Below, piece after piece: positions 30,627-44,661 of a stretch of DNA of 46,266 nucleotides. The position numbers and the translations under genes were made by a program. This stretch comes from Terriglobia bacterium (GTDB lineage: Bacteria; Acidobacteriota; Terriglobia; Terriglobales; Acidobacteriaceae). The stretch's first letter is position 1. The number at the start of each line of letters is the position of its first letter. The notes beneath the pieces were generated by a model. The model did not search any database. It was given only the letters and a program-made list of their open reading frames with translations, and was not told the DNA's origin. The stretch covers positions 1 through 46,266 of the forward strand of contig JAJPHW010000222.1 in the NCBI GenBank assembly GCA_021325035.1. The letters are read 5' to 3'.

Positions 30627-32162
30627 CTAGGGCGACACTTGCGTGGAAATGCCACCCGAAACCTCATCACCTGTGTCTCCCAAAAGTAACTCTCCGCTGT
30701 CGATCCCATTATTGGAGCCACCGCTATTAGAAATGAGATAGACAACGAGTTCGTTGGTTATGCCCGGTATTGAGGCTGATAAGCGGCCATCGGGGGTCAC
30801 GGTATAGCTCGTGGTGGGCGCGTTCGTCTGTCTTCTGGAACCGCTTCGATTTACAAAGTAGTCGGGGAGCGAAAGTTTTCCACTTCCGTCAAAATTCATC
30901 ACTCCGAGACGGTTGACCAGCGGGGCATTCATTGAGTCATGGCCAAACATGGAGAACGTGTATTGTCCTTTTACCGAAGAGGTGGAAAATGAACCGCTTG
31001 ACTGTTGGTTCATCGAACCATCTTGGGCCAATCCGAGAACGTCAACTAGGAAGAATGCGCGTGAAGGACTTATTATCCAAGCCACTTCAGGTATGGGACT
31101 CGCTCCAGCAGGATCCAATGTTAGGAGCACTCGTCCTTGCGAACTCACTGAATAAGTGCCTGTAAGTGCACTCTTTACAGGTGAACCATCGGATACTGAA
31201 TCATAGCTCCCTTGCGTGATGTTACCGTTTCCATCGGCAGTAAATACGCCAGCGCTGGTCACTCCAAAAACACTCGTTTGTGTATCACCTGTGCTCGAAA
31301 AGACAAATCCGCCACTCAGACTCGAATTTGTAAAACTCGATCCGCTCTGCTCCACGGCGCGTCCAATCCCCAAGTGCACGAGATCGGCCCCCATCAGGAC
31401 AAGTGTCTGAGAATCAACAATGTAATAAAGATAGCTTGAAGTGAATCCGGAACTCTCCACCAGGCTGATCATTCCTCGTCCGGTAGAATCGGGTGCTGTC
31501 AGCGATCCACTAATCGTGGGTGAGCGCAAAATCCCAAATCTTACAATGTCTTCGTATCCGCTGATATTGCCAGAATTAAAGTTCATTTGCCCAACGCAGG
31601 AAATGGAACCCGACGAGGGAACATTTGGCTCATAACCATGAAAACGGAAAATAAAAGCTCCGTTCGGCGAAGACGATAATGCAGAAGAGTTTTGTAACAA
31701 AGCTCCACCGGATCCGCTGGCAAATGAGTCCATTTCCATCAATAAAACCCTGGAGCTATTAATTATGGTCATAGCAAGATTAATTTGTACGCCCGCGATA
31801 TTCATAACAACGAGGCCAGTGCCATCGTTGGCAACCGCATAACTGCCGGTAAAAGGATTCGTCGTGACCAGCGTCGAACCCTGAATAAGATCATCGCTGC
31901 CGTTCGAGATTTGTCCTGCTCCGTCCGCAACAAACGTTCCCGCGCGCTGAAAAGCCCCGTTGCCGCTCGACAATCCGAAAAAACTACCGCCCAAAGTGTA
32001 CGTGTAATTCCCTTTGAAGTTCGCGTTAGTAAAAGAACCGCTGCCCGTGTTGGATCCTGCGCTCGGAGTACTCTTGCTACTGGAACAACCGGGCGTCAAA
32101 CACAAGACCGCGATTAAGGTTTGGAGCAACAGAGAGGTTCTTCTTGAATTCTTCGGCTTCAT
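30627..32162 (-). CDS. Lipoprotein with four internal beta-rich repeats, function unknown
   Basis: The frame is open from a GTG at 32204. The ATG at 32162 is preferred because it begins a clean lipoprotein signal (MKPKNSRRTSLLLQTLIAVL, then CLTPGC). That leaves about 511 residues. The mature part consists of four repeats of roughly 110 residues, each opening with a G-x-Y/F-x-F-x-x-x-G segment. Each then has a short G-x-F/M-x-x-D-G-x-G-x-I motif and a G-x-Y-x-V-x-x-x-G-R segment; the last copy is shortened. No catalytic motif is visible. Proteins built from such repeats are frequent in Acidobacteriota. It lies between the PEP-CTERM gene and the sulfotransferase gene. Confidence 0.7.
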   Translation of the reverse strand: MKPKNSRRTSLLLQTLIAVLCLTPGCSSSKSTPSAGSNTGSGSFTNANFKGNYTYTLGGSFFGLSSGNGAFQRAGTFVADGAGQISNGSDDLIQGSTLVTTNPFTGSYAVANDGTGLVVMNIAGVQINLAMTIINSSRVLLMEMDSFASGSGGALLQNSSALSSSPNGAFIFRFHGYEPNVPSSGSISCVGQMNFNSGNISGYEDIVRFGILRSPTISGSLTAPDSTGRGMISLVESSGFTSSYLYYIVDSQTLVLMGADLVHLGIGRAVEQSGSSFTNSSLSGGFVFSSTGDTQTSVFGVTSAGVFTADGNGNITQGSYDSVSDGSPVKSALTGTYSVSSQGRVLLTLDPAGASPIPEVAWIISPSRAFFLVDVLGLAQDGSMNQQSSGSFSTSSVKGQYTFSMFGHDSMNAPLVNRLGVMNFDGSGKLSLPDYFVNRSGSRRQTNAPTTSYTVTPDGRLSASIPGITNELVVYLISNSGGSNNGIDSGELLLGDTGDEVSGGISTQVSP

Positions 32163-32523
32163 CTGCAGGAGAAGAATTGCGGCCATGTTTGGAAAGATAT
32201 CCACGATAAAATTCCCATCCGTAAACTATAGACTCAGCACATACAACGACTTATAACTTTGGGCGCACGAAAAATGTAATCGCGCCATGCACTCCGAATC
32301 TGATCACCAACACGATACGAGCTGTTTGACTTATCACCAATTCCGACGAGGTGGGGGCTATTTAGAACAGCATCTGATGCGCAAATATCAACCAACGTTA
32401 TTCTATATAAGCTCAGGGGAATAGGCCAAAGAGACTTCACGTTAAACACGAACAAGGCTGGTCAGATAAATGTGACCAGCCTTGCATGTAAAACTAGAAT
32501 ATCGCCTGCCGCCCGCAAATTCT
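32163..32523. other. Intergenic region with a hairpin
   Basis: These 361 nt lie between the PEP-CTERM gene and the repeat lipoprotein gene, both on the minus strand. They include the alternative upstream start of the lipoprotein (32204) and a strong hairpin near the PEP-CTERM end. No other gene is apparent. Confidence 0.4.
32453..32484 (-). terminator. Strong hairpin, probable terminator of the PEP-CTERM gene
   Basis: A perfect 12-bp inverted repeat (CAAGGCTGGTCA and its complement) surrounds an 8-nt loop. It lies 40 nt beyond the stop of the minus-strand PEP-CTERM gene. On that strand the stem is followed by TTCGTGTTT, a weak T-rich tract. It could also act as an mRNA-stabilising structure. 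Confidence 0.55.
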
Positions 32524-33261
32524 CTATAGGCTGCCAGCCGCCGATCCAATCATCTTGCCTGCGAGTCTTCGACGCGCAACGAATCCGGCAACAATTAGAC
32601 CGCTGCCAAATAACGCCAGTGACCCAGGTTCAGGCACGGGAGACGGAAACGTGGTAGTGCCATTCTGATCTGTCCAAGTGATTGGCTTACCAGTGCCACC
32701 CCCACCGGGTTTACCAGTTTCGGTGGTGATATTGACGTTGCCTGCAGTGATATTGTTAAACACCATGCCATTACCCAAAGTTAACGTGCCGTCAATAACT
32801 TGCCCAGAGTAAATCCAAAACGCCGTCCCCAACTGAGCCTTACCGAACTTCTGCCAGGTTGCGCCTTGGGCGAAAATGCCGGAGAAGGTAAATCCACCGC
32901 CAGCGCCTGTGCTCGTCACATCGAGACTCCCGCCTTGGTTGAAAATAGCAGGCGTGTACCCGGTTCCCGTCGCGTTATCGGCGGGATTAAGCGCTCCACT
33001 CATGAGCGTTCCCGTCATTAATGTCACCGTACCTGCACAAGCGGGCGGTGGACAATTGTACGGCGAGAACAATCCGCTGACGCCACTCAGTGTTGAACCA
33101 GACAATGTCAGCGTCGTGTGCGCATTGTTGGATGTCCAAGTTCCGTCGTTGTTGGTAAAAACGGTGTTTGAATCTGCCCAAACAATAGCGTTTGCGCAGA
33201 GCAACCATAGAACCAGTGTCAAGTAAGGCAGAGTTCTACTGCGCTTCGATTTCTCTTCCAT
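32524..33261 (-). CDS. PEP-CTERM sorting domain protein
   Basis: The ATG at 33261 is preceded by GGAGG at 5 nt; an upstream in-frame TTG at 33273 is less likely. The product of about 245 residues has a signal peptide (TLPYLTLVLWLLCANAIVWA) and a Gly/Thr/Asn-rich beta-type body. The C-terminal sorting signal is VPEPGSLALFGSGLIVAGFV followed by ARRR. PEP-CTERM proteins are cut by exosortase at or near the PEP motif and are usually surface- or matrix-associated. An exosortase and EpsI are encoded directly upstream. About 12 residues follow the arginine cluster, a slightly long tail for the family. The function of the body is unknown. Confidence 0.9.
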   Translation of the reverse strand: MEEKSKRSRTLPYLTLVLWLLCANAIVWADSNTVFTNNDGTWTSNNAHTTLTLSGSTLSGVSGLFSPYNCPPPACAGTVTLMTGTLMSGALNPADNATGTGYTPAIFNQGGSLDVTSTGAGGGFTFSGIFAQGATWQKFGKAQLGTAFWIYSGQVIDGTLTLGNGMVFNNITAGNVNITTETGKPGGGGTGKPITWTDQNGTTTFPSPVPEPGSLALFGSGLIVAGFVARRRLAGKMIGSAAGSL

Positions 33262-33478
33262 TCTCGCCTCCAAGAAAGATTTCTTGCAGTAAACCGATTA
33301 CAAATAAAACCAGAAGACTCTGAGCCAAAGCTAAGACTTCGAGTTGCATTCATAGTAGCTCTGAGACAATCCGCATTTATTGCTGGAGTATTAACATTTC
33401 GTTAAATTCCACCGTACTCCGTGGGAAAAATGTGGAAAACAAAGCGTAGGATGCTGGTCAAGCTCGTGAAACTTCTTT

Positions 33479-34132
33479 TCAGCGCGGAATGTATGCATCC
33501 AATCGGGGAATCATCTGTTGTAGCAATGAAGTAAGTCGTAGCTGAGCGTCGGCAATGCTTTCAGATTTTTGAATCTCGGTAGTAGCGCGTATTAAAGAAC
33601 CGTCGCTACGATTCATGCGAATCGAATCCTCAATCAAATAGAACTTTGCAAGGTACTCGTTTGCCACTGCGCGATTATGGGCCCAATACCAGTACAGAAC
33701 GAGTGCACGGGTAGAACCTTTTCCTACTAGATATCGATTAACAACAATAGGAGCACGACCAGGCACAAAAAGTGTGATTCGGGTCGAGTCGAGGGGTTGC
33801 CAGCCTGCGCCAGGTAAACAATTCTTGGGAGAATGGATCGTGGCACCCACTCGCTGGGTGGGAAAGTATGCCGCAAAGATGTTCACAGCAGAAGCGCTAT
33901 GACTAGTGTCTTCATAATTACGAAATAGAAAATCGCCCGGACCAAGTACGCGGACTACGTCGGGTGAAATACTCACGTCAGTTCCCATCCAAGTGCCAAA
34001 CTGTTGCGGGAAAGAGGCCAGGCTCTGGCGCGGCGGTATGACTTCATCAACAGTCCGGATTCGAAGAAAAAGTCCGGTGGAAGTAAGCAGCAGGACGGTG
34101 GCAAAGAATCTAAAATTCGGTGCCACAGGCAT
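33479..34132 (-). CDS. EpsI family protein (exosortase-associated)
   Basis: The chosen start is the ATG at 34132 (MPVAPNFRFFATVLLL), preceded by GAGG, rather than the more distant start at 34198. The 217-residue product has one N-terminal membrane helix and the EpsI-domain segments FPQQFGTWMGTD and IHSPKNCLPGAGW, plus ALVLYWYWAHNR. EpsI domains occur fused to, or next to, exosortases in polysaccharide/PEP-CTERM loci. Their exact role is not established. The coding region overlaps the exosortase end by 23 nt, so the two are translationally coupled. Confidence 0.9.
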   Translation of the reverse strand: MPVAPNFRFFATVLLLTSTGLFLRIRTVDEVIPPRQSLASFPQQFGTWMGTDVSISPDVVRVLGPGDFLFRNYEDTSHSASAVNIFAAYFPTQRVGATIHSPKNCLPGAGWQPLDSTRITLFVPGRAPIVVNRYLVGKGSTRALVLYWYWAHNRAVANEYLAKFYLIEDSIRMNRSDGSLIRATTEIQKSESIADAQLRLTSLLQQMIPRLDAYIPR

Positions 34133-35018
34133 ATCCTCTTTTTCGATCCATATATGCGAGAACTCGCTGCACCAGTAACAAAATCCCGATGGCGGCAACG
34201 AATAGCAGCCAGCCGGAAAATAAATGAAAAAAACCTTCTGCTCTATGTGGATCCCAATATTGCACCAGTAACCCTGTAACGATAATTCGCAAACTATTGG
34301 TAATAATCGCGATTGGAACCGCAGTCAACGCCATGACTATACGGGTCCAATTTCGACCTCCGGCCAAATAGCCAAAAATGATCGCCAATGCGATTAACGA
34401 AACAAGCGAGCGCACACCGCTACATGCTTCGGCAACCTCCAACGATAATACCGGTAAATTAATGATGTTGCCTTCGCGTAATACTGGCACGCCGCACAGC
34501 GGCAGCACCGACGCGGCAATCTTGGACACCAATGTCTGGAGGGGCATTGTCACTTGGTTGAAAATGAGTTCGGGGATCGGAATCATCAGAAACAAAAACA
34601 CCCACGGAAAAAGAAGCCTACGGAAATAGTTCCATCCGAGAAATAAAATGACCAGCCCGGCCAGCAGCAGAAGCAAGGAAACACGCGAAAAAAATAGTTC
34701 GGCGCCGAGAACACCGATTCCAAGAATAAGGAGCGAAAACGCCAATAACGGGAACCCAAACCATGACGGTTTGGGTCGTAAGCTGCGGAGGTAGAAACGA
34801 TCCCGCCAGATTACAAAAATTGAAAAGATTGGAACTAAAAATCCGTGCGAAAAATCCGGGTCGGCCCACCACTGCTCTAGCAAGCGAAAAATGATCGAAG
34901 CGTATAACCAAAACACTAAACCTGCAATAATAGCTATACGTGGCCACAACCTTCTGGTTGTTTGAGCTGCGACGTAATCTCTCTCCGCCGAAACTCCGAG
35001 ATGCGCCAAATGACTCAT
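34110..35018 (-). CDS. Exosortase (EpsH/XrtA-type transpeptidase)
   Basis: This 302-residue polytopic membrane protein has about eight helices. It shows the exosortase catalytic triad: Cys199 in EVAEACSGVRSL, Arg244 in TNSLRI and His265 in GFFHLFSGW. The N-terminal family motif DPDFSHGFLVP is at 53-63. Exosortases process the C-terminal PEP-CTERM signal of exported proteins, a function analogous to sortase. The gene is followed by EpsI (overlapping) and one PEP-CTERM protein, and is divergent from an exopolysaccharide export operon, which is the typical genomic setting. The exact Xrt subtype was not determined. Confidence 0.94.
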   Translation of the reverse strand: MSHLAHLGVSAERDYVAAQTTRRLWPRIAIIAGLVFWLYASIIFRLLEQWWADPDFSHGFLVPIFSIFVIWRDRFYLRSLRPKPSWFGFPLLAFSLLILGIGVLGAELFFSRVSLLLLLAGLVILFLGWNYFRRLLFPWVFLFLMIPIPELIFNQVTMPLQTLVSKIAASVLPLCGVPVLREGNIINLPVLSLEVAEACSGVRSLVSLIALAIIFGYLAGGRNWTRIVMALTAVPIAIITNSLRIIVTGLLVQYWDPHRAEGFFHLFSGWLLFVAAIGILLLVQRVLAYMDRKRGYACGTEF

Positions 35019-35427
35019 GCGTTATAAACCAATTGCTCAACTAAAAACGCAAGGTGCTCTGCGATTTCTATCGTATCTTTAACGCTTTTGCCCGTCACCC
35101 GTTAAGAGCCAGGCAAATAAGAGCCAGGCAAACCCAACCGTTGCAGCCAGATGTACGATTCTATAAGAGGCGCAATTACTTGAAGGAAAAGCCCATAACT
35201 TTTAGCAGAAAATTAACATAAGCCCCATCCGAATGTTCCCGCGGTGTGATATTCCTTAACAAGTTGTTTTCGCAAGGAGCAACCGGCCGGGATCCACTAT
35301 CTCGCACGGCAGATTCCACATTGTTTAACCCTAGGGATCCCTTCGCAGCGGAGTCTGGCTTGTCGTTTAAACCCGCCGGACTGCCAAGGTGGCCTACCGG
35401 CGGAAGGCTGGAAGAGTCGGCAAAGGA
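35019..35427. other. Divergent promoter region between exosortase and polysaccharide export operon
   Basis: These 409 nt separate the two divergent units and must contain both promoters. They contain a 15-bp perfect tandem repeat at 35103-35132. An in-frame GTG at 35389 could extend the export protein by 13 residues. No sigma-54 consensus was recognised. Confidence 0.4.
35103..35132. repeat. 15-bp perfect tandem repeat
   Basis: TAAGAGCCAGGCAAA occurs twice head to tail (35103-35117 and 35118-35132), about 85-115 nt upstream of the exosortase start. It may be a direct-repeat protein-binding site or simple slippage duplication. Confidence 0.6.
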
Positions 35428-36054
35428 ATGAGACTTACGGCGCCCAAAGTTGTACTTGGAGTATTACTTATCCTGGGTCTTCCGACTATGGGGGCGCGGG
35501 CTTTGGTCGATCCAAAACCTGCAAGCTCCCAGTCCGCGCCTCCTACAGATGGAACGAGTTCTTTGATTCAAAGCCCCGGCTATCTCATTGGCCCCGATGA
35601 TATTTTGCATATCCAGGTATGGAAGGAACCAGAACTTGGCGCCACATTGCCAGTTAGAACCGACGGTAAGATATCTCTGCCTCTAATTAATGACGTGCAG
35701 GCCGCGGGCATGACTCCTGTCGAATTGGCCGGTTCCATCACTGAAAAGCTGAAGAAATACTTTGATGACCCTCGGGTCACGGTCATGGTTTCGCAAATGA
35801 CGCACCAGCGAGTTTACGTGGTAGGCGAGGTAATGAGCCACGGACCGATGGTGCTTTTGCCAGATATGACGGTACTACAGGTTTTGGCAACTTCAGGCCT
35901 CACTCAGTTTGCTAACCGCAAGAAGATTTACGTACTTCGGACAACAAATGGGCACGAGCAGAAATTCCCGGTTAACTATAAGCGATTGTTGAAGGGAGAT
36001 CAGATGAGCCAGAACATCAAACTGCAACCGGGGGATACGATCGTCGTACCGTAG
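35428..36054 (+). CDS. Polysaccharide export protein (Wza-like, SLBB domain)
   Basis: The ATG at 35428 gives 208 residues. A signal-like hydrophobic segment (VVLGVLLILGLPTMGARA) has no lipobox cysteine. The Poly_export domain follows (YLIGPDDILHIQVWKEPEL ... RTDGKISLPLINDVQAAG ... DDPRVTVMV), then one SLBB domain (RVYVVGEVMSHGPM ... VLQVLATSGL). These proteins form the periplasmic or outer-membrane part of the polysaccharide export channel. The short length and absence of a lipid anchor differ from E. coli Wza. It is the first gene of the export operon; a Wzz-like gene begins 17 nt later. Confidence 0.92.
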   Translation: MRLTAPKVVLGVLLILGLPTMGARALVDPKPASSQSAPPTDGTSSLIQSPGYLIGPDDILHIQVWKEPELGATLPVRTDGKISLPLINDVQAAGMTPVELAGSITEKLKKYFDDPRVTVMVSQMTHQRVYVVGEVMSHGPMVLLPDMTVLQVLATSGLTQFANRKKIYVLRTTNGHEQKFPVNYKRLLKGDQMSQNIKLQPGDTIVVP

Positions 36055-36071: not shown

Positions 36072-37628
36072 ATGATCGCAAATCGTGAATTAGGAATGGA
36101 GGATTATCTGGCTATCGCCAAGCGGCGCGCCAAGATAGTTATATTTCCGGCGCTTATTGCTGCCCTTTTGGGATTCCTTATCTCTTACGCTTTGCGGCCT
36201 AAATACACATCCCAGGCACTGCTCGCAGTGACACGTCAGTTGATGCCAGCTGGCTATGTAAAGCCGATTATTACAGAGAAAATAAGTGACCGGATGATCG
36301 CACTGGAGCAACAGGTACTCAGTCGCAGTCGCTTGCGCCCTCTTGTTAGCCGTTTCGGGCTGGCCAACAATGGCAAGACCGAAGACGAAGTAATCGACCA
36401 GATCCAGCAGAACGTCCAGGTTACACAAGCTGACCCGAGTAATCCGACCGCCGGGCCAAGCGCAAGTACTCTCTCCAAGAAGAAGACAAGCTTTGACGAT
36501 AGCGGAGATGTTCCGGGCTTCTACGTGAACTACACCGCCGACAATCCGCGGAACGCCCAACTTGTGTGCGCAGAAATAACGTCGATGCTCTTGGAAGCCA
36601 ATTTAGAACTACGTCAGCAAGTCGCCCAGAGCACAACCGACTTCCTTTCGCAACAACTCCAGCAGGCCAAACAAAATCTCGACGAACTAGACGCGAAACT
36701 AGCTGAATTCAAGAAGTTACATCTCGGCCATTTGCCCACAGACGAAGACAAGAACCTTCGAATTCTTACGGGCTTGGATGCCCAACTGGATGCGAATGTT
36801 CAGGCTATGGATCGGGCACAGCAGGATAAATCTTTTGCCGAGTCGGAGTTAGCGCAAGAGATGTCGGCGTGGAAGCTCGCGCAAGGGTCTCCAAATCTAC
36901 CGCCGTTACGCCAGCAATTGGTAAACCTCGAAAATCAGCTCGTTGAAATGAAGAGCCGTTACACCGATGACCACCCTGACGTCGTGAAATTGCAAAAAGA
37001 CATCGCCGACCTTAAAGCCACCCTCAAGATGGACCCCGCACAGAATCCGTTTCCGGAAGATCCACAGGCAAAGATGGAACCCGCCGAGATTTTGCGTTTG
37101 AAGGAGCAGATCCATCAGAACACAGAAATCATCGCGCGGACGTCGCGTGAACAGAAGCGCATTCAGGGATTGATCGATACCTATCAGGATCGCCTGCAAC
37201 TAAGTCCCGAGGTTGAAGAACAGTACAAGCAACTGACCCGGGACAACGAAACCGCGCACACGATTTACGACGGCCTCTTGACGAACCAGAATGCTGCACA
37301 GATGCAAACGGACATGGAACGCAAGCAGGAAGGGGAACAAATTAGATTGCTCGATCCTGCGAGCCTTCCCGACGCCCCAAGCTTTCCAATTCGTTGGATG
37401 TTTGCGCTCGGAGGGCTTGGTGCAGGCTTGTGTGTTGGAATCAGCATTGCATTCTGGAAAGAGATGCAAGACAAAGGCATCCGAAGTGAAAGTGACGTTG
37501 TGGCTGCATTGGAATTACCGATGCTTGTCTCTTTGCCGTGGGCATTCGCGCCTGCGAATGGAAAAGAGCACCGAAGTAGGTTTCTTGGCCAGTTCGAACG
37601 GATGCATAAAAGAGACAAGAGCGCATAG
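36072..37628 (+). CDS. Polysaccharide chain-length determinant (Wzz/GumC-like)
   Basis: This 518-residue inner-membrane protein has a first helix at about 21-41 (KIVIFPALIAALLGFLISYAL) and a second near the C-terminus at about 447-467 (ALGGLGAGLCVGISIAFW). Between them is a large periplasmic coiled-coil domain rich in Gln, Leu, Lys and Glu, with LVNLENQLVEMKSRYTDDHP. The N-terminal Wzz motif includes ALRPKYTSQALLAV. Such co-polymerases set polymer length together with a partner tyrosine kinase, which is encoded downstream. No Walker motifs are fused here. An alternative start is Met9 at 36096. Confidence 0.9.
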   Translation: MIANRELGMEDYLAIAKRRAKIVIFPALIAALLGFLISYALRPKYTSQALLAVTRQLMPAGYVKPIITEKISDRMIALEQQVLSRSRLRPLVSRFGLANNGKTEDEVIDQIQQNVQVTQADPSNPTAGPSASTLSKKKTSFDDSGDVPGFYVNYTADNPRNAQLVCAEITSMLLEANLELRQQVAQSTTDFLSQQLQQAKQNLDELDAKLAEFKKLHLGHLPTDEDKNLRILTGLDAQLDANVQAMDRAQQDKSFAESELAQEMSAWKLAQGSPNLPPLRQQLVNLENQLVEMKSRYTDDHPDVVKLQKDIADLKATLKMDPAQNPFPEDPQAKMEPAEILRLKEQIHQNTEIIARTSREQKRIQGLIDTYQDRLQLSPEVEEQYKQLTRDNETAHTIYDGLLTNQNAAQMQTDMERKQEGEQIRLLDPASLPDAPSFPIRWMFALGGLGAGLCVGISIAFWKEMQDKGIRSESDVVAALELPMLVSLPWAFAPANGKEHRSRFLGQFERMHKRDKSA

Positions 37629-37714: not shown

Positions 37715-38581
37715 ATGAGCCAAATGCATAAGCCCCAAGGAAACATCGAACCGCACGGAGATGCCGGGAGCGATGAAAAAGCGGGCAGGAGCGATGAGCA
37801 TGCAAAACAAGTTACTCCGATGCTGATCAACCCAGCTGACGCTATGACGCGCGATACTGTTTTGGCCGATTGCGTTCGCAAGATGTGGACGCCGGATTCG
37901 AATTCGCTGTTGGACTTTAACGGTACCGCACCCTCCCACGGGGTTGAAGAATTTCGCGCATTACGTTCTCGTCTTTATCAGTTACAGGCAAAAGCGCAAC
38001 TAAAATCTATCTTGGTCGGAAGTGCCCTGCCAGGCGAGGGAAGAACATTTGTTGCGGCAAATCTCGCCCTGGCCTTAGCTCTCCAGCCGGAATGTCGTGT
38101 CTTGCTTATCGATGCAGATTTGCGCAATCCCCGTCTTCATTCCGCATTGGGGACAGTTCGCGCGCCGGGATTTTCGGAATACTTATTACAAGAAGTGGAA
38201 GAGTTTGGGATCATGCAGAAAGGCACCCCGGACAATCTCTTTTTTATCCCGGCGGGACGACCCATTGCAGGGCCGACCGAACTCGTCGCCAATGGCCGAC
38301 TGAAGTTTCTTATGGACAGAGTTGAACCTTTGTTCGACTGGATTATTGTGGATTCACCACCCGCAGTCCCGGTATCGGACGCATGCTTGCTCGCCAACTA
38401 TTGCGATGGTGTATTGATGGTCGTGCGTTCCGACTCAACGCCATTCGATATCGTCCGCAAAGCGCGCGACAGGTTTCCTGAAGAGTCTCTCGTTGGCGTT
38501 GTACTGAATGTCATCGAGTCCGACCGCACCCCGAATGCAACTTCTTCGGGGGCCAATGATGGCCTCCAAATTCGAGGTTGA
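37715..38581 (+). CDS. BY-kinase-like (CpsD/CapB family) P-loop ATPase with altered Walker A
   Basis: This 288-residue protein matches bacterial tyrosine autokinases of polysaccharide export. It has a polar N-terminal 70 residues, the EEFRALRSRL segment, and a Walker A region at 102-111. Walker A' is LLIDADLRNPRLH (131-143) and Walker B is DWIIVDSPPA. Walker A reads GSALPGEGRT, so the invariant lysine is replaced by Arg110 (codon AGA). The C-terminal tail (residues after VVLNVIESDR) contains no tyrosines, although BY-kinases normally end in a Tyr cluster. It may therefore be a poorly active or regulatory partner of the Wzz-like protein encoded upstream. The family assignment is firm, but kinase activity is doubtful. 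Confidence 0.88.
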   Translation: MSQMHKPQGNIEPHGDAGSDEKAGRSDEHAKQVTPMLINPADAMTRDTVLADCVRKMWTPDSNSLLDFNGTAPSHGVEEFRALRSRLYQLQAKAQLKSILVGSALPGEGRTFVAANLALALALQPECRVLLIDADLRNPRLHSALGTVRAPGFSEYLLQEVEEFGIMQKGTPDNLFFIPAGRPIAGPTELVANGRLKFLMDRVEPLFDWIIVDSPPAVPVSDACLLANYCDGVLMVVRSDSTPFDIVRKARDRFPEESLVGVVLNVIESDRTPNATSSGANDGLQIRG

Positions 38582-38587
38582 ACCCCA

Positions 38588-39742
38588 GTGCGATGGATCT
38601 TTTGGGGATCGGTGGTATTTCTCTGCTACACCTATTTTGGATACTTAGCCGTGCTCTGGGTGCGCAATCTCGTGTCCAAACGTCCCGTGCATGCAGCTCC
38701 ATTTTTCCCGTCGGTTTCTATCGTCATGATAGTACGCAACGAAGCGGACGTTATCGAGCGCAAGTTACGGAATCTCGAAACACTGGCTTACCCGTCAAGC
38801 AAGAAAGAAATCATTGTTGTATCGGACGGATCTACCGATAAAACCAATGAAATTTTAAAAGAGTTTGATAGAACAGATGGTCCGCGCATAATTTTCAACT
38901 CTCCACCACGCGGCAAGGCAGCGGGACTGAATAGTGCAATCGAGCTTACACGCGGAGAGATTCTTGTCTTTACGGACGCGCGGCAGCGGATCGAAAACGA
39001 TGCTGTTCAGATATTGATGGAGAATTTCTGCGATCCATCTGTCGGATGCGTAAGCGGCGAGTTAATGTTAGGAGATGAACGATCGAACGAAAACACGACT
39101 GGACTCAGTATGTATTGGAAGCTGGAAAAACGAATTCGTGAAATGGAATCGGCTTCCGGGTCTGTCGTGGGCGCTACCGGTGCCTTCTACGCCGTACGGC
39201 GAACTTTAGTTCCTTACGTGCCTGAAGAAATCATTTTGGATGATGTCTATATTCCGATGCATGTCGTTCGTGAGGGGTCCAGAGTAGTTTTCGACAATCG
39301 TGCGCGCGCTTGGGATAAACCAGACCTTGGACGTCAACGCGAATATGCCCGGAAGGTTAGGACTCTGAGCGGCAATTATCAGTTACTGCGGATTGCGCCG
39401 TGGCTCCTGGGTAACACGAACCCAATTCGATTTCGATTTTTTAGTCACAAATTAACACGCTTAGCAGCGCCCTTTGCTTTGCTCGCATGTTTCGCTACTT
39501 CATGCTTCCTGCCCGGACCGATCTACACTGCAGCCATGTCGGTGCAATTGATGTGCTACGGTCTCGGCCTTTTGGGGTTTTTGAGTCGTCCGCACGGCTT
39601 ATTAGGCACGCTCACCAACGCAGCTTTCAGTTTTGTCATGCTCAATGTGGCTACTATTGCGGCTTTGCTGAATTTCCTAGTCGGCCGCAAAGTTTTGTGG
39701 TCTGTTGCACCCGAGGCCACAGTGGAATCGCCAAATGTCTAG
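38588..39742 (+). CDS. Family 2 glycosyltransferase, membrane-bound
   Basis: This 384-residue protein starts with GTG at 38588, 6 nt after the kinase-like gene. One helix at the N-terminus (IFWGSVVFLCYTYFGYLAVLW) is followed by a GT-A domain. It carries SVSIVMIVRNEADVIERKL, VVSDGSTDKT, FTDARQ, the acidic LDDVY and a Q/RRxRKVRT-like motif (GRQREYARKVRTLSGNYQLL). Three to four helices close the protein. The pattern resembles processive or dolichol-type enzymes such as cellulose/PNAG synthase-like proteins. It probably adds sugars to the exopolysaccharide at the cytoplasmic face. The donor and linkage cannot be told. Confidence 0.9.
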   Translation: MRWIFWGSVVFLCYTYFGYLAVLWVRNLVSKRPVHAAPFFPSVSIVMIVRNEADVIERKLRNLETLAYPSSKKEIIVVSDGSTDKTNEILKEFDRTDGPRIIFNSPPRGKAAGLNSAIELTRGEILVFTDARQRIENDAVQILMENFCDPSVGCVSGELMLGDERSNENTTGLSMYWKLEKRIREMESASGSVVGATGAFYAVRRTLVPYVPEEIILDDVYIPMHVVREGSRVVFDNRARAWDKPDLGRQREYARKVRTLSGNYQLLRIAPWLLGNTNPIRFRFFSHKLTRLAAPFALLACFATSCFLPGPIYTAAMSVQLMCYGLGLLGFLSRPHGLLGTLTNAAFSFVMLNVATIAALLNFLVGRKVLWSVAPEATVESPNV

Positions 39743-40727
39743 CCTGTACGTACTAGGTGCGCGGCAACGCAAGTCTTTGCTGAAGCGCGAATGGGAATGG
39801 AATCTTTATGATGCTGCCATCATTCTGGAAGTAAATACCCTATCCGGAGCCGTACGAACCTGTATTGAATACAAGAGCCCGCCTGAAGTCCTCGCCGGGC
39901 CAAAATCTTCGATCGTTTTCAAGAGCGGGTCGTTAATCGGAGACAAGTTGTACGCTTGTACGTCCACTGAAGTATTAATTTTTAAATTACCTCGATTCGA
40001 GCAAATTGGGTATGTATCTCTTCCCTGCTTCAACGACCTTCACCACGTGGTTCCGTCATCCGACGGAATGCTCCTCGTCGCAAACACAGGGCTTGATCGT
40101 GTCGTGAAATGTACAGTCGAAGGAGAAATTGTCGAGCAATGGTGCGTACTGCCAGAGCTCCTCTGGTCGAGGTTTTCGCCGCATGTTGACTATCGGAAGG
40201 TGCCAAGTACAAAGCCCCATCAATCCCACCCAAACTTCGTTTTTGAGTTAAAGGGAGAAACCTGGGTCACGCGCTTCCGGCAGCGCGACGCAATCTGCTT
40301 AACCGATCCTGAAAAACGGATTGACCTGGCACTACAATATCCGCACGATGGAGTGCTCTCTAATGGGAAAATGTATTTTACTTTGGTTGATGGGCGGGTG
40401 AGTATCGCAAATGCGGATACCCATCAAGTTGAGCGCGTAATCGACCTGAAAGAAATTGATGGGCGCGAGGCTTTGTTGGGCTGGTGCCGAGGAATTCTGC
40501 CTTTGCATGATCACACCATGTGGGTCGGATTTAGCCGTCTAAGAAAAACCGAATTCCGCGAAAATGTTATGTGGGCCAAGCACATTTTCCGAAAAGGGAT
40601 GCGCGAAAAACCAAGCCACATCACACTCTACGATGTGCAAAATGGGATAAGTTTGCGAGAGTTCGCCTTGGAAGAGTACGGCTTGAACATCATCTTTAGC
40701 ATTTTCTCAGTTCCCGCCGCGCCATAA
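39735..40727 (+). CDS. Protein of unknown function, possible beta-propeller, coupled to glycosyltransferase
   Basis: The ATG at 39735 overlaps the end of the glycosyltransferase gene by 8 nt and gives 330 residues. The in-frame TTG at 39705 is unlikely. There is no signal peptide or membrane helix, so it is probably cytoplasmic. Repeated short blade-like segments are visible: GDKLYACTSTEVLIFKLP, DGMLLVANTGLDRVVKC, NGKMYFTLVDGRVSIAN and DHTMWVGFSRLRKTEF. These suggest a beta-propeller of five to seven blades. Clustered His residues (LHHVV, HPNFVF, LHDHTMW) could form a metal or ligand site. I do not recognise the family. Coupled translation suggests it acts with the glycosyltransferase or on the glycan. 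Confidence 0.75.
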   Translation: MSSLYVLGARQRKSLLKREWEWNLYDAAIILEVNTLSGAVRTCIEYKSPPEVLAGPKSSIVFKSGSLIGDKLYACTSTEVLIFKLPRFEQIGYVSLPCFNDLHHVVPSSDGMLLVANTGLDRVVKCTVEGEIVEQWCVLPELLWSRFSPHVDYRKVPSTKPHQSHPNFVFELKGETWVTRFRQRDAICLTDPEKRIDLALQYPHDGVLSNGKMYFTLVDGRVSIANADTHQVERVIDLKEIDGREALLGWCRGILPLHDHTMWVGFSRLRKTEFRENVMWAKHIFRKGMREKPSHITLYDVQNGISLREFALEEYGLNIIFSIFSVPAAP

Positions 40728-40770: not shown

Positions 40771-42618
40771 CTAGAATGCATACCATGCGCCACTCGTACC
40801 CATGCACATAGCAGGGGGCGGAGTACAAGCATCAATTTTGGTAAATACGCTACGGCCATAGAAAAACGGCAAGCCCCAGTCAAAACTACAAGAAGTACCT
40901 CCGCCCACACACGCCGGCATGGATTGCTCCGGCCCGGCCAATGTGTCAAACGCTGCGCCGCCGGGATACATCGAAAATAGCCTGTCAGCATTATCAACAC
41001 TAAAATTGACGACTGCACTTCCTTGAGTGGCGCCTTGGTCAGTCGCCGTAAGGTTCGTTAAAGATCCCGGGCAAAAGAATTGTGAATCGGATGTGCAGAC
41101 AGGAAGCGAATCGGGGAAAAACAGTCCATTCGCGCCACTGTCAATGAAACTACTGACAAGGTTTTGACCTTGAAAAGTTGTGGTGAAGTGGTCGTTTGCA
41201 TCCAGAGTAAGAATGGTTGCGTTCCCCAGGAGATTGTTGATCTGTGTATTGATACCGAAAATCAACAATCCGTTCACCGTCGCGCCAGGACCGGCGGGTA
41301 CCGGCAATTGAAGAATGCTACCGGTATTGTCTGCGAAAAGCGTAATGGGATTCGTTACTTGCTGGCGAGACGCCGTTGTCGCAATCACCGGCGAATCAGT
41401 CGTAGCACATCCAGCTAACGGGGCGCAGCTATAATAAAGATTCGGCAAAGTTGCGTTCGTGCTTCCGTCGCAATAGTTCGTTCCAGCCAACGTGCAGTCT
41501 GTAGGTTCTAATCCAATTCCCAAGATGCCGTTGGCACCCAATAATTGTGGCGTATTCGAATTCTGGACGCCCCCATTGGTGCAACCATCGGGTACAACAG
41601 CGTCTGCGGTGGGAATTAATTGAAAAGGCAAAGTGAGTGCTACTTCTCCTCCTATATATACGTCCGCTGACGACACCGCTCCCCATCGGTACGCTCCATT
41701 TGCGAGGGACTGGCAGTTCTCAAGGGTATTTCCTATGCCATCCGTGATCGTGTGGAATTTGAGCATGGGCACAGCCGACTGAAGGATCCGCAGGCCTACC
41801 GATCCGGTATCCACTAATATGCCATCAACGACTTGGCAGGCGACTGTGCTGCCCGGCTGGCATATCAAAATGCTGGTAAATGCTCCATTCGCATAAGTTT
41901 GCCCTGGCACTTGGCCGCCGTTCACGCTTACTGGAACAACATTCGGGCCGGCGCCTGAGGGCAGGACATAAATTGTTACGGAGGCTGAAGCGGTAGGAGT
42001 ATCCACCGAAGTTGCCGTAACAGTTACCGCAGTCTGGGACGACACGGTGCTCGGCGCCGTGTACAGAGCCTGGCTGGCAAATGTCGCCTGCAAAGTACCA
42101 GCGCCAGTAGCGGGGGATAGGGACCATGTCACGCCGTGGGGTCCCGACGGCGTGACCGTCGCTACCATTGTCGTCTGCGCACCTTGGTTAAGTGTGAACG
42201 GAGCCAGGGCAAGGCCAAACGTGTTAGTCAGAGACACAAGCACAGGGGACACGATGATTTCCACCGAAGCGGTAATTGTCGGGTTTGTAATCGAGGTGGC
42301 GATGATGGTTGCCTTTCCAGTCTGTGTTATCTGAGCTGGGGCGGTATAGGTCACAGCGGTTGCGGTGCCAGCGCTTAGAGTACCGAAGGTCGCGGGAGAA
42401 AGCGTCCACGTCACTCCCTGCTTATTCGGATCATATACAGTAGCCTCAATTGTGACAGCTTCGCCAACGCTTATGCTCGAAGCAGGTCCCGAAAGTGTAA
42501 TCGAAATGGGAGCTCCGGAGGTTGACGAACCACCGCCGCAGGAAGCAAGAAATAAAACTGACAGCAAGAATCCGAGCCAAACAAATTTGCGTACAATCCT
42601 TATGCTAGCGGACATCAT
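40771..42618 (-). CDS. DUF3443 lipoprotein with Big-type repeats, possible pepsin-like fold (copy A)
   Basis: This 615-residue protein has a lipoprotein signal (FLLSVLFLASCGGG, Cys27). Two Ig-like repeats lie at about 38-123 and 127-218 (VTWTLSPATFGTL and VTWSLSPATGAGTL). The DUF3443 domain follows. It carries GILVDTGSVGLRIL (Asp270), GAYRWGAVSSADVYIGG (about 308-324), GANGILGIGLEP (361-372) and SSFIDSGANGLFF (Asp493). The order matches the N-lobe DTG, flap, DGILGLG and C-lobe DSG/DTG of pepsin-type peptidases, so an aspartic peptidase fold is inferred. Many cysteines suggest disulfides. GGAGGGGGTGAG precedes the ATG, and the gene overlaps DUF2844 by 14 nt. Confidence 0.85.
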   Translation of the reverse strand: MMSASIRIVRKFVWLGFLLSVLFLASCGGGSSTSGAPISITLSGPASSISVGEAVTIEATVYDPNKQGVTWTLSPATFGTLSAGTATAVTYTAPAQITQTGKATIIATSITNPTITASVEIIVSPVLVSLTNTFGLALAPFTLNQGAQTTMVATVTPSGPHGVTWSLSPATGAGTLQATFASQALYTAPSTVSSQTAVTVTATSVDTPTASASVTIYVLPSGAGPNVVPVSVNGGQVPGQTYANGAFTSILICQPGSTVACQVVDGILVDTGSVGLRILQSAVPMLKFHTITDGIGNTLENCQSLANGAYRWGAVSSADVYIGGEVALTLPFQLIPTADAVVPDGCTNGGVQNSNTPQLLGANGILGIGLEPTDCTLAGTNYCDGSTNATLPNLYYSCAPLAGCATTDSPVIATTASRQQVTNPITLFADNTGSILQLPVPAGPGATVNGLLIFGINTQINNLLGNATILTLDANDHFTTTFQGQNLVSSFIDSGANGLFFPDSLPVCTSDSQFFCPGSLTNLTATDQGATQGSAVVNFSVDNADRLFSMYPGGAAFDTLAGPEQSMPACVGGGTSCSFDWGLPFFYGRSVFTKIDACTPPPAMCMGTSGAWYAF

Positions 42619-43132
42619 TAGGGCTCACCCCCTCCGGTAGCAACGTCGGATCATAAGCACGTCCGGAAAAAGCGCGCATGTGTCCCGCCGATTGCACGAC
42701 GAGATTCGGTTCGCGAATGTCCAAAGGACGATGTCCTAAATAACCTGACCGCGCTTCGTTTGCAGCCGATGAGTATCGGTCGAAATAAGCTCCAAGTATC
42801 TGGTGCATGTCGGGAGTGAATGGTCCCTGCCATGCGACGCCAAACACACGTCCCGCTGGCGTTAGATACTCTCTCACCACGGTCCCGGAAGCCTCGGTGA
42901 TTTCTTGCACAGAACAAGAATCGTGCTGAACAGCGCTCGTTGTTGAACTAGGCGCAATCTTCATCCGATCAGACTCGACAGAAGAGAGGTCACCTCCAAG
43001 CGAAGCGAATGCGGGCAAAGACAGGAAGGTGAGCAATAGGACTATCCTTATCTGCGCCGAGCTACTATTCGAGTAGATTTTTTCGCGACATGGGTTCTTC
43101 ATCGTCATCCACCAAATTCTTATATTCCTCAT
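42605..43132 (-). CDS. DUF2844 family secreted protein
   Basis: The ATG at 43132 overlaps the TGA of the upstream DUF3443 gene (ATGA), which fixes the start; a longer frame from 43282 is not credible. The 175-residue product has a signal peptide (IRIVLLLTFLSLPAFASLGG). The DUF2844 domain follows, with SVQEITEASGTVVREYLTPAGRVFGVAWQGP and MHQILGAYFDRY. The family is a small exported domain of unknown function, frequently encoded next to DUF3443. Here it sits between two DUF3443 genes with overlaps on both sides, so the three are surely co-translated. A chaperone, inhibitor or substrate role toward DUF3443 is possible but unproven. Confidence 0.88.
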   Translation of the reverse strand: MRNIRIWWMTMKNPCREKIYSNSSSAQIRIVLLLTFLSLPAFASLGGDLSSVESDRMKIAPSSTTSAVQHDSCSVQEITEASGTVVREYLTPAGRVFGVAWQGPFTPDMHQILGAYFDRYSSAANEARSGYLGHRPLDIREPNLVVQSAGHMRAFSGRAYDPTLLPEGVSPNDVR

Positions 43133-44661
43133 GGTGCGGGGAAACTCGTCGTGTACGCCCACCAAGGAGCAGCAGGTGTGTTTATTGGCGGGGACTGACC
43201 ACGCACCGTCGTAAAAATAGTCCGCCCGTAGAAAAACGGCACGCCAAAAATAAAGCTGCATGCCCCTGTGCCATCCGAACATAATCCCGTGCCGTTGGGC
43301 CCACCCAGCCCGCTAAATGCCACATCTCCAGGATTGTTTGTGAGTAGGTCTGAAGCGTTATCAATAGTGAAGTAATTCGTATCCTGCGACTTGTTCACAC
43401 CTATGCTGGTGACTGTGAGAGAAATCGGGGCGGCTGGGCAAAAAAACAACGCGTATGGACTTGCGCACGTAGTGATCGCATCATCTGGGAAAAAGAACGC
43501 ATTCGAACCACTATCCAAGAAGCTGGAGGTCAATGTTTGGCCCGTTTCAGACAGCTTGACGGTAAAGTTGTCGTTGGCGTCCAGAGTAAAAATCGTTTGG
43601 GTTCCAATCTGATTATTGCTCTGTGTTCCAACGCCGAAAGTCAAAAAACCTGTGAGATTGCCCGCAGATCCAGACACAGAAGGAAGTTGCAAGACTGTCC
43701 CATTATTGTCGATCCCAAAAAATGTGGCGGGGTGGTTCACTTGCTGCGCGAGTGATGCGAACGCCGCAGTGCAACTACCACCTGTGCAGGTGTAATATGC
43801 CGCGCCCGGAGGTGTCGCGCCCGCGGCAGCAACGCACGCTGCGCCGCAATCTTGTGGTTCAACGCCAATGCCTAGAATTCCATTTGCCCCTAAGGCATCG
43901 AGGCTGTCTTTGTCGCCTTCTGTTCCGGTCGCCGCACAGTCTGATGGAATGGAATAGCCACTTGGATCTGCAATTGCTTGTATGGGCAGAGACGCCGCTA
44001 TCTCCCCGTTAATTCGTACGTCAGCCAACTCGACCTGCCCCCATATATAGGATTGGTCTTCAAACTGAAAACACTCATTCAAAATGTCGCCGCTGCTATC
44101 TTTAACAGGCGTAAGAGTGGGTAGCGCGGAAGCAAGAATCCTTAGCCCGACGGTGCCTGTATCCACGAGGATGCCATTGATGGTTTTACAATTCGTACTT
44201 CCCGTAGTGCATACATCAACGCTGGTAAATGCAGCGTTTGGATAACTATGTGAAGATGGTCCCCCGTCAACGCTAACACCTTGCACATTGCCGAACACGT
44301 TAAACGGCACTACGGTAAGTGGTAAGTATGCGCTGGCTCCGCTGGCTGTGGTCGCAGTAACAACCGCGTAGGCGTTCTGGCCAGTGAAGGAGGGAGCGAG
44401 ATACGTCGCGACATTGGGCGGCTGGTTTGGAAGCTGCGTCGCGTTTGCAAGCGTGCCTGCTCCGGACACAGTCCAAGTTACGAGCGACCCATCGGAGGCA
44501 GCTGCGTTGATGGTCAGGGTCGAACCAGCATTGATCGACCGGCCAACCGATGGCGTAAGCGTGACAGTAGCTGGAACCTTCGAGCTTGCGCTTCCACCGC
44601 CGCCACATCCGGCCGCGAGAGCCAAACTCACCAAAATAATTCCAAAAGCAACCCGACGCAC
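43129..44661 (-). CDS. DUF3443 lipoprotein, possible pepsin-like fold (copy B)
   Basis: This 510-residue protein is the first gene of the DUF3443-DUF2844-DUF3443 operon. It has a lipobox (VSLALAAGCGGGG, Cys19) and one Ig-like repeat (about 30-118, VTWTVSGAGTL). The DUF3443 domain carries GILVDTGTVGLRIL (Asp167), QSYIWGQVELADVRING (203-219), GANGILGIGVEP (258-269) and SSFLDSGSNAFFF (Asp383). It ends in FGVPFFYGRTIFT, matched in the paralogue by WGLPFFYGRSVFT. It differs from copy A mainly by having a single N-terminal repeat. The two-motif arrangement again suggests a bilobed aspartic peptidase-like fold at the cell surface. Confidence 0.85.
   Translation of the reverse strand: MRRVAFGIILVSLALAAGCGGGGSASSKVPATVTLTPSVGRSINAGSTLTINAAASDGSLVTWTVSGAGTLANATQLPNQPPNVATYLAPSFTGQNAYAVVTATTASGASAYLPLTVVPFNVFGNVQGVSVDGGPSSHSYPNAAFTSVDVCTTGSTNCKTINGILVDTGTVGLRILASALPTLTPVKDSSGDILNECFQFEDQSYIWGQVELADVRINGEIAASLPIQAIADPSGYSIPSDCAATGTEGDKDSLDALGANGILGIGVEPQDCGAACVAAAGATPPGAAYYTCTGGSCTAAFASLAQQVNHPATFFGIDNNGTVLQLPSVSGSAGNLTGFLTFGVGTQSNNQIGTQTIFTLDANDNFTVKLSETGQTLTSSFLDSGSNAFFFPDDAITTCASPYALFFCPAAPISLTVTSIGVNKSQDTNYFTIDNASDLLTNNPGDVAFSGLGGPNGTGLCSDGTGACSFIFGVPFFYGRTIFTTVRGQSPPINTPAAPWWAYTTSFPAP

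Follow-up and report, generated by a model that had tools for sequence, protein, structure and literature searches.

Export of polysaccharides by PCP-2 systems is currently modelled as requiring cycles of tyrosine phosphorylation. In Wzc and CapB, the tyrosine tail of one subunit is reported to enter the active site of the next subunit, phosphorylation dissolves the octamer, and cycling is required for capsule formation (PMC8285477, PMC11986026, PMC3795738). Wzc and CapB with the Walker A lysine replaced by methionine are described as inactive (PMC11986026, PMC3795738), yet the altered proteins are octameric: the CapA1B2(K55M) octamer contained ADP-Mg although none had been added, and Wzc(K540M) likewise formed an octamer (PMC3795738, PMC8285477). 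For CapB1, ADP-Mg binding in the active site is reported alongside a lack of activity in vitro (PMC3795738). One recent exception to the model is EcpK of Myxococcus xanthus, a BY pseudokinase in which all Walker motifs are gone; it binds the PCP EpsV, is needed for exopolysaccharide and has been proposed to act as a scaffold (PMC12004946).

The analyzed stretch of DNA (hereafter, the window; 46,266 nucleotides) is contig C130 of a soil Acidobacteriota genome, G000, the only genome of its genus in the compared set. It carries an exosortase/PEP-CTERM exopolysaccharide locus. On the plus strand, profile searches identified an OPX/Wza-like outer-membrane polysaccharide export protein (35389..36054) and a Wzz-like PCP partner of 518 aa ending in KRDKSA (36072..37628), which has Wzz and GNVR domains and no match to a kinase domain. 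They are followed by a BY-kinase-like gene (37715..38581, plus strand, 288 aa, stop codon included in the coordinates). Directly 3' of it, a GT2 glycosyltransferase gene (38588..39742, plus strand) closes a compact unit with the order OPX-PCP-kinase-like-GT2. The divergent side, on the minus strand, encodes an exosortase of the EpsH family (34110..35018), an EpsI-like exosortase-associated protein (33479..34198) and a PEP-CTERM protein that is a candidate exosortase substrate (32524..33273). A 525-aa open reading frame (30627-32204) adjoining sulfotransferase-like and PEP-CTERM genes had no Pfam or NCBIfam match at E 0.01. The region 39705-40727 encodes a 340-aa protein with no Pfam or NCBIfam match; L271, which is 53% identical to it, adjoins a phosphoglycosyltransferase gene on contig C200 of the same genome. 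Further along, a DUF2844 protein is encoded between two DUF3443 proteins on the minus strand (40771-44661).

The protein encoded by the kinase-like gene has a BY-kinase fold, as indicated by a phmmer match to Wzc (3.9e-22) and by an AlphaFold2 model (pLDDT 85.5), for which Foldseek returned Wzc as the best match (1.5e-16), then the kinase domains of Etk, VpsO and CapAB. Its nearest named homologues come from Acidobacteriota/Terriglobales metagenome genomes. The best family matches were TIGR01007 (polysaccharide biosynthesis tyrosine autokinase; 118.2 bits, above the curated cut-off of 108.05) and TIGR03018 (XrtA-associated tyrosine autokinase; 144.1 bits, under the cut-off of 230.65). A lysine-containing orthologue, L008, was also under the TIGR03018 cut-off (143.1 bits). 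These families occur in the same kind of exosortase/exopolysaccharide locus, but the window protein has neither the lysine nor the tail of an autokinase, and while the name of TIGR01007 asserts autokinase activity, the sequence argues against it.

The P-loop of the window protein is VGSALPGEGRTF, and the translated stretch reads V101-G-S-A-L-P-G-E-G-R110-T111-F. Within the Walker A segment V101-T111 (VGSALPGEGRT, 38015..38047, plus strand), residue 110 is Arg, encoded by AGA (38042-38044, plus strand), where BY-kinases have Lys. The other elements of the nucleotide site are present: Walker A' LLIDADLR with D133 and D135 (38102..38125, plus strand) and Walker B WIIVDSPP with D213 (38339..38362, plus strand). 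The EX2RX2R motif E78/R81/R84 (37946..37966, plus strand), whose role at the subunit interface is described in PMC3795738, is also intact. All of these residues and P-loop Gly109 are invariant in an alignment of 38 sequences. Residue 102 (38018-38020) of the Walker A segment is Thr in 71 of 73 close Lys homologues and Gly, Val, Val and Ala in the four Arg proteins considered below. The C-terminal tail following VVLN265 (residues 266-288, 38510..38578, plus strand) is VIESDRTPNATSSGANDGLQIRG; it contains no Tyr, the cluster of Lys relatives (such as SRYYYxxY) being missing, and is modelled with low confidence (pLDDT blocks of 47 and 40 from residue 271). The N-terminus, MSQMHKPQGNIEPHG (37715..37759, plus strand), corresponds to the MSRIHxAL start in degenerate form; 69 of 73 close Lys homologues have this start, and the remaining four are gapped there. 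The original prediction of a P-loop arginine, intact Walker A' and B motifs and a missing tyrosine cluster is therefore correct in each of these points.

The BY-kinase fold, DxD, Walker B Asp and EX2RX2R are thus present in the window protein, and the catalytic Walker A Lys and the Tyr-rich tail are missing. A BY-kinase fold without a catalytic residue and a Tyr tail, together with a PCP-2-type partner that has no kinase domain of its own, characterizes BY pseudokinases of the EcpK/HfsB kind. As in EcpK, a stand-alone fold with a C-terminal region free of Tyr is associated with exopolysaccharide export and with a PCP-2 protein lacking a kinase domain, although for the window protein the binding of this partner is a prediction (PMC12004946). 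Unlike EcpK, which according to its description has lost all three Walker motifs, the window protein is changed only in the Walker A Lys and keeps Walker A' and B, so it differs by a nearly intact nucleotide site as judged from its sequence; its PCP gene is directly upstream, whereas EcpK is reported not to be encoded beside its PCP (PMC12004946). The arrangement resembles the PCP-2b pair CapB/CapA of S. aureus, in which the kinase-like protein is likewise separate from its membrane partner and has the EX2RX2R and nucleotide-site motifs, but CapB2 has the Lys and the Tyr cluster and autophosphorylates, whereas the window protein has neither (PMC3795738). Like Wzc(K540M), it has a replaced Walker A Lys and the BY-kinase fold (PMC8285477, PMC11986026). 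The Wzc variant, however, carries a laboratory Met, the Tyr tail and a fused PCP and was described as an octamer, while the window protein has a natural Arg and no tail, and its ring is a prediction. Among the results listed by searches of open-access titles and abstracts, with the terms tried, none dealt with BY-kinases having a Lys-to-Arg change in Walker A or with this acidobacterial clade.

The homologue pool comprised 239 loci, or 197 distinct proteins after removal of identical or contained ones. The main set consisted of 118 acidobacterial proteins with at least 40% identity and complete tails; three acidobacterial proteins with tails cut by a contig end and 17 acidobacterial rows below 40% identity, all with Lys and at least three Tyr, were left out. 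The Walker A residue was Lys in 114 of the 118 and Arg in the other four, with no further variants. At least three tail Tyr were found in 113 of the 114 Lys proteins, the exception being L107 with one. The Arg proteins had none (the window protein and L126 of genome G070) or one (L158 of G366 and L159 of G306). A tail with 0-1 Tyr therefore characterizes 4/4 Arg and 1/114 Lys proteins (Fisher p 6.5e-7, a value that overstates independence, given the relatedness of the rows and the mere two changes to Arg on the tree). The degenerate MSRIHxAL start is common to the window, G366 and G306 proteins, and L126 retains the motif. A degenerate-DNA search for Arg P-loops matched 88 of 398 genomes, many by chance, and only the four matches coinciding with kinase-like genes were used. 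In a search of the phylum (297 genomes), matches outside the family were at most 41% identical. Outside Acidobacteriota, one Arg protein was found among 54 homologues with an aligned P-loop, five more being unaligned there. This protein, L058 of an uncultured Paenibacillaceae, has EGRT and one tail Tyr; it is uninformative on the coupling of Arg with the tail, since 17 of 53 Lys relatives outside the phylum also have two or fewer tail Tyr.

The exceptional Lys protein, L107 (locus L194/L107, contig C24 of G122), has a short tail, GARDQAAYVR, with a single Tyr, and its PCP ends in Cys. Judging from these sequences, it looks like an intermediate in which the tail and the partner end have been lost and Lys is kept. 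A Tyr tail hidden by a frameshift was ruled out, as no frame contains a YYY run across the final 90 bp of the gene and the next 150 bp in the window, L158, L159, L126 and L107.

The assembly consists of 232 contigs and AGA is one transition away from AAA, which would fit a sequencing or assembly error at codon 110. However, three other genomes have an Arg that is encoded differently, and the same error would not explain the missing tail. The codons are AGA in the window, CGT in G306 and G366 and AGG in G070, so Arg does not result from one base-calling error; an isolated mutation or error was rejected, and we consider an error at this codon very improbable. In the homologues, Lys is encoded by AAG (80) or AAA (34), and CGT is more than one base change away from any Lys codon. 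Most simply, Arg was kept in the G306/G366 lineage while its codon changed. The original prediction took homologues with Lys as a sign of an isolated mutation or error. Most homologues do have Lys (114/118), but the idea stands, because Arg and tail loss are shared and recurrent, the PCP end differs and one Arg pair is under purifying selection.

In a kinase tree built without the P-loop and tail columns, the window protein and those of G366 and G306, two species of another genus, form a clade with long branches (99/97). The protein of G070 is placed apart from this clade, near L127 and L024. The fewest changes on the tree are two for Arg and three for low Tyr, which contradicts a single origin of all Arg proteins. 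The alignment of homologues proposed with the original prediction thus showed Arg and tail loss to be common to a clade of three species and to recur in a separate lineage. Forcing L158 and L159 to group with their own genus, g7, was not rejected (AU p 0.086), so the number of Arg origins is two, perhaps three. The PCP tree likewise unites the window, G366 and G306 (100/99), and together with the shared operon layout it favours one clade of L158/L159 with the window; the GT2 tree gave no resolution. A sign test on independent pairs had two pairs only, with which significance is unreachable.

The compact order OPX-PCP-kinase-like-GT2 is found in the window, G366 and G306. An ExeA-like ATPase (TIGR03015 family, score below the cut-off) precedes the kinase gene in all 22 Lys loci compared, among which L015 and L178 represent one place and L009 is cut before the PCP, and also in G070; the window operon has no such gene. 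In the full locus of L008, the OPX and PCP genes are additionally separated by a gene for a 497-aa protein, and the kinase and GT2 genes by one for a TIGR03013 phosphoglycosyltransferase; the other Lys loci have gaps of similar size at these places. The three Arg-clade genomes encode a TIGR03013 phosphoglycosyltransferase on another contig, next to a relative of the 497-aa protein. A separate ExeA-like gene is present in G306 and G366, and the best ExeA-like gene of G000 sits in a second, Lys-type locus on C32. The compact PCP-kinase junction is not exclusive to Arg systems, since the PCP gene ends 32 bp (L127) and 227 bp (L130) before a Lys-type kinase gene. In these two loci the PCP and kinase genes are too close together to accommodate an ExeA-like gene.

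Genome G000 also encodes a second BY-kinase-like protein, L275 (C212:4607-5380), which adjoins a phosphoglycosyltransferase-like gene and carries Cys where the Walker A Lys would be. In L275 and L276-L304 (30 loci among the 34 matches listed), this residue is Cys in 23, Ala in four, and Ser, Asn and Gly in one each, with no Lys. Most of these proteins have a C-terminus like RTFPIPxxIYxxL. They represent a family-wide, more degenerate BY pseudokinase candidate.

The C-terminus of the PCP partner differs between the two types of systems. PCP ends were available for 60 of the 118 systems; the last residue was V/L/F, a criterion chosen after viewing the data, in 49 of 55 Lys systems with at least three tail Tyr versus 0 of 4 Arg systems. 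The Arg systems end in A, A, A and G. The six Lys exceptions are L024, L099, L115, L021 (masked sequence), L127 and L130; the PCPs of L127 and L130 end in Ala and Lys. Since these short-gap Lys loci lack the hydrophobic end, and three of the four Arg systems have a short PCP-kinase gap as well, the PCP end loses weight as an indicator of Arg in its own right, and it may partly follow operon layout rather than Arg. G070 and L107 speak for a link between the PCP end and kinase loss, as both keep a long gap. For CapA of S. aureus, a Phe at the last or penultimate position is described as stacking on the adenine of the kinase's nucleotide (PMC3795738), and by analogy the acidobacterial PCP Val may act in the same way.

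The G366/G306 pair of kinase-like genes had dN/dS values of 0.202 (NG86) and 0.247 (YN00) over residues 41-265, and 0.265 over the whole open frame. The values for the neighbouring genes were 0.137 (PCP), 0.14 (OPX) and 0.181 (GT2). Of the 43 Lys pairs of similar dS, which have overlapping members, 42 were at or below 0.17 and one was at 0.256. The Arg-type gene thus appears, from this one Arg pair, to be under purifying selection looser than that on its Lys relatives, and a dN/dS above that of 42 of the 43 Lys pairs is compatible with its slow decay. Longer branches of the Arg clade (stem 0.22; 0.45 and 0.51 further), the raised dN/dS and the Lys-type BY-kinases retained by G000 at C32 and C127 would fit a relaxed, decaying gene with no remaining role. 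We regard this as quite improbable, given that the open frame is kept in 4/4 Arg genomes, dN/dS of the one testable pair is well below 1, the place between the PCP and GT2 genes is kept in three of them, and Arg survives a codon-family change.

On balance, the window protein is probably a BY pseudokinase, a former stand-alone kinase of CapB/CpsD type that now serves as a scaffold of an exosortase-linked exopolysaccharide exporter with no phosphorylation cycle. The Walker A Lys, Tyr-rich tail, usual hydrophobic PCP end and N-terminal motif, all lost, would be the equipment for transphosphorylation, while the protein retains its fold, the acidic residues of DxD and Walker B, and the ring-interface motif. 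Phosphorylation cycling is unlikely for an Arg-containing, tail-less protein, since Wzc and CapB need tail entry and their Lys-to-Met versions are inactive yet octameric; by analogy with them, such a protein may hold nucleotide and serve as a base for the PCP. Its most likely place is still the cytoplasmic base of the Wzz-like PCP, where it would serve as a scaffold, with nucleotide probably held by the Arg-containing P-loop, and would support PCP assembly without phosphorylation-driven disassembly. The recurrence of these losses together in relatives, established like the substitution itself by comparison of sequences, suggests an export component working without phosphorylation. Of the original prediction, the absence of kinase cycling and the role as a structural partner of the Wzz-like protein gained support from this comparison, and the binding of nucleotide and of the partner is what we infer, as are loss of kinase activity and ring formation.

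The conservative nature of the change is a point against the scaffold role, as Arg could permit some catalysis on other substrates. A still active kinase, in which Arg110 stands in for Lys, other proteins are phosphorylated on Tyr and only autophosphorylation is lost, would be consistent with the retained positive charge and the intact remaining catalytic motifs. It is improbable in view of the tail loss accompanying Arg and the inactivity of the Lys-to-Met proteins cited above; a discussion of the Lys-to-Arg change was looked for in PMC8517177 and not found. A tail-less ring might also be weak, judging by analogy, since octamer stability in Wzc is reported to depend on the Tyr tail itself (PMC8285477), and octamers of even the inactive mutants are described as difficult to observe in solution (PMC3795738). 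Finally, only two Arg origins are secure on the sequences compared.

The retained nucleotide site bears on another reading, in which ATP is bound and slowly hydrolysed by the Arg protein, as by MinD/ParA relatives, and an ATP/ADP cycle drives assembly of the PCP ring in place of Tyr phosphorylation. DxD, the Walker B acid and Gly109 of the P-loop are all intact and do not vary, and every departure from Lys in the 118 rows is Arg. The window protein and its G366 relative weakly match the KGGVGR-motif variant AAA ATPase family (E 3e-6 and 1.8e-7), which by its name has Arg at the Lys place, and MinD families were also matched. However, the scores lie far under the curated cut-offs, and MinD is matched by the Lys orthologue L008 too. 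No hydrolysis-stimulating partner was identified, and the window operon has no ExeA-like ATPase. Such a nucleotide switch is therefore unlikely.

For the preferred pseudokinase scaffold, a stepwise history can be proposed tentatively. Exosortase-linked exporters of Acidobacteriota would have repeatedly turned a BY-kinase into a nucleotide-holding ring scaffold, with the Tyr tail and the PCP end lost first (the L107 state) and Lys then replaced by Arg, which would keep phosphate binding and freeze the ring. If true, these loci would form a natural series leading from kinases to pseudokinases, with PCP assembly that is constitutive or ATP-switched taking the place of the phosphorylation cycle. 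Among related operons, some have all kinase elements and others the dismantled set, with L107 as an apparent intermediate, so that the contribution of each element to export is testable by part swaps. The findings are also a warning that proteins named 'tyrosine autokinase' from family matches may not be kinases.
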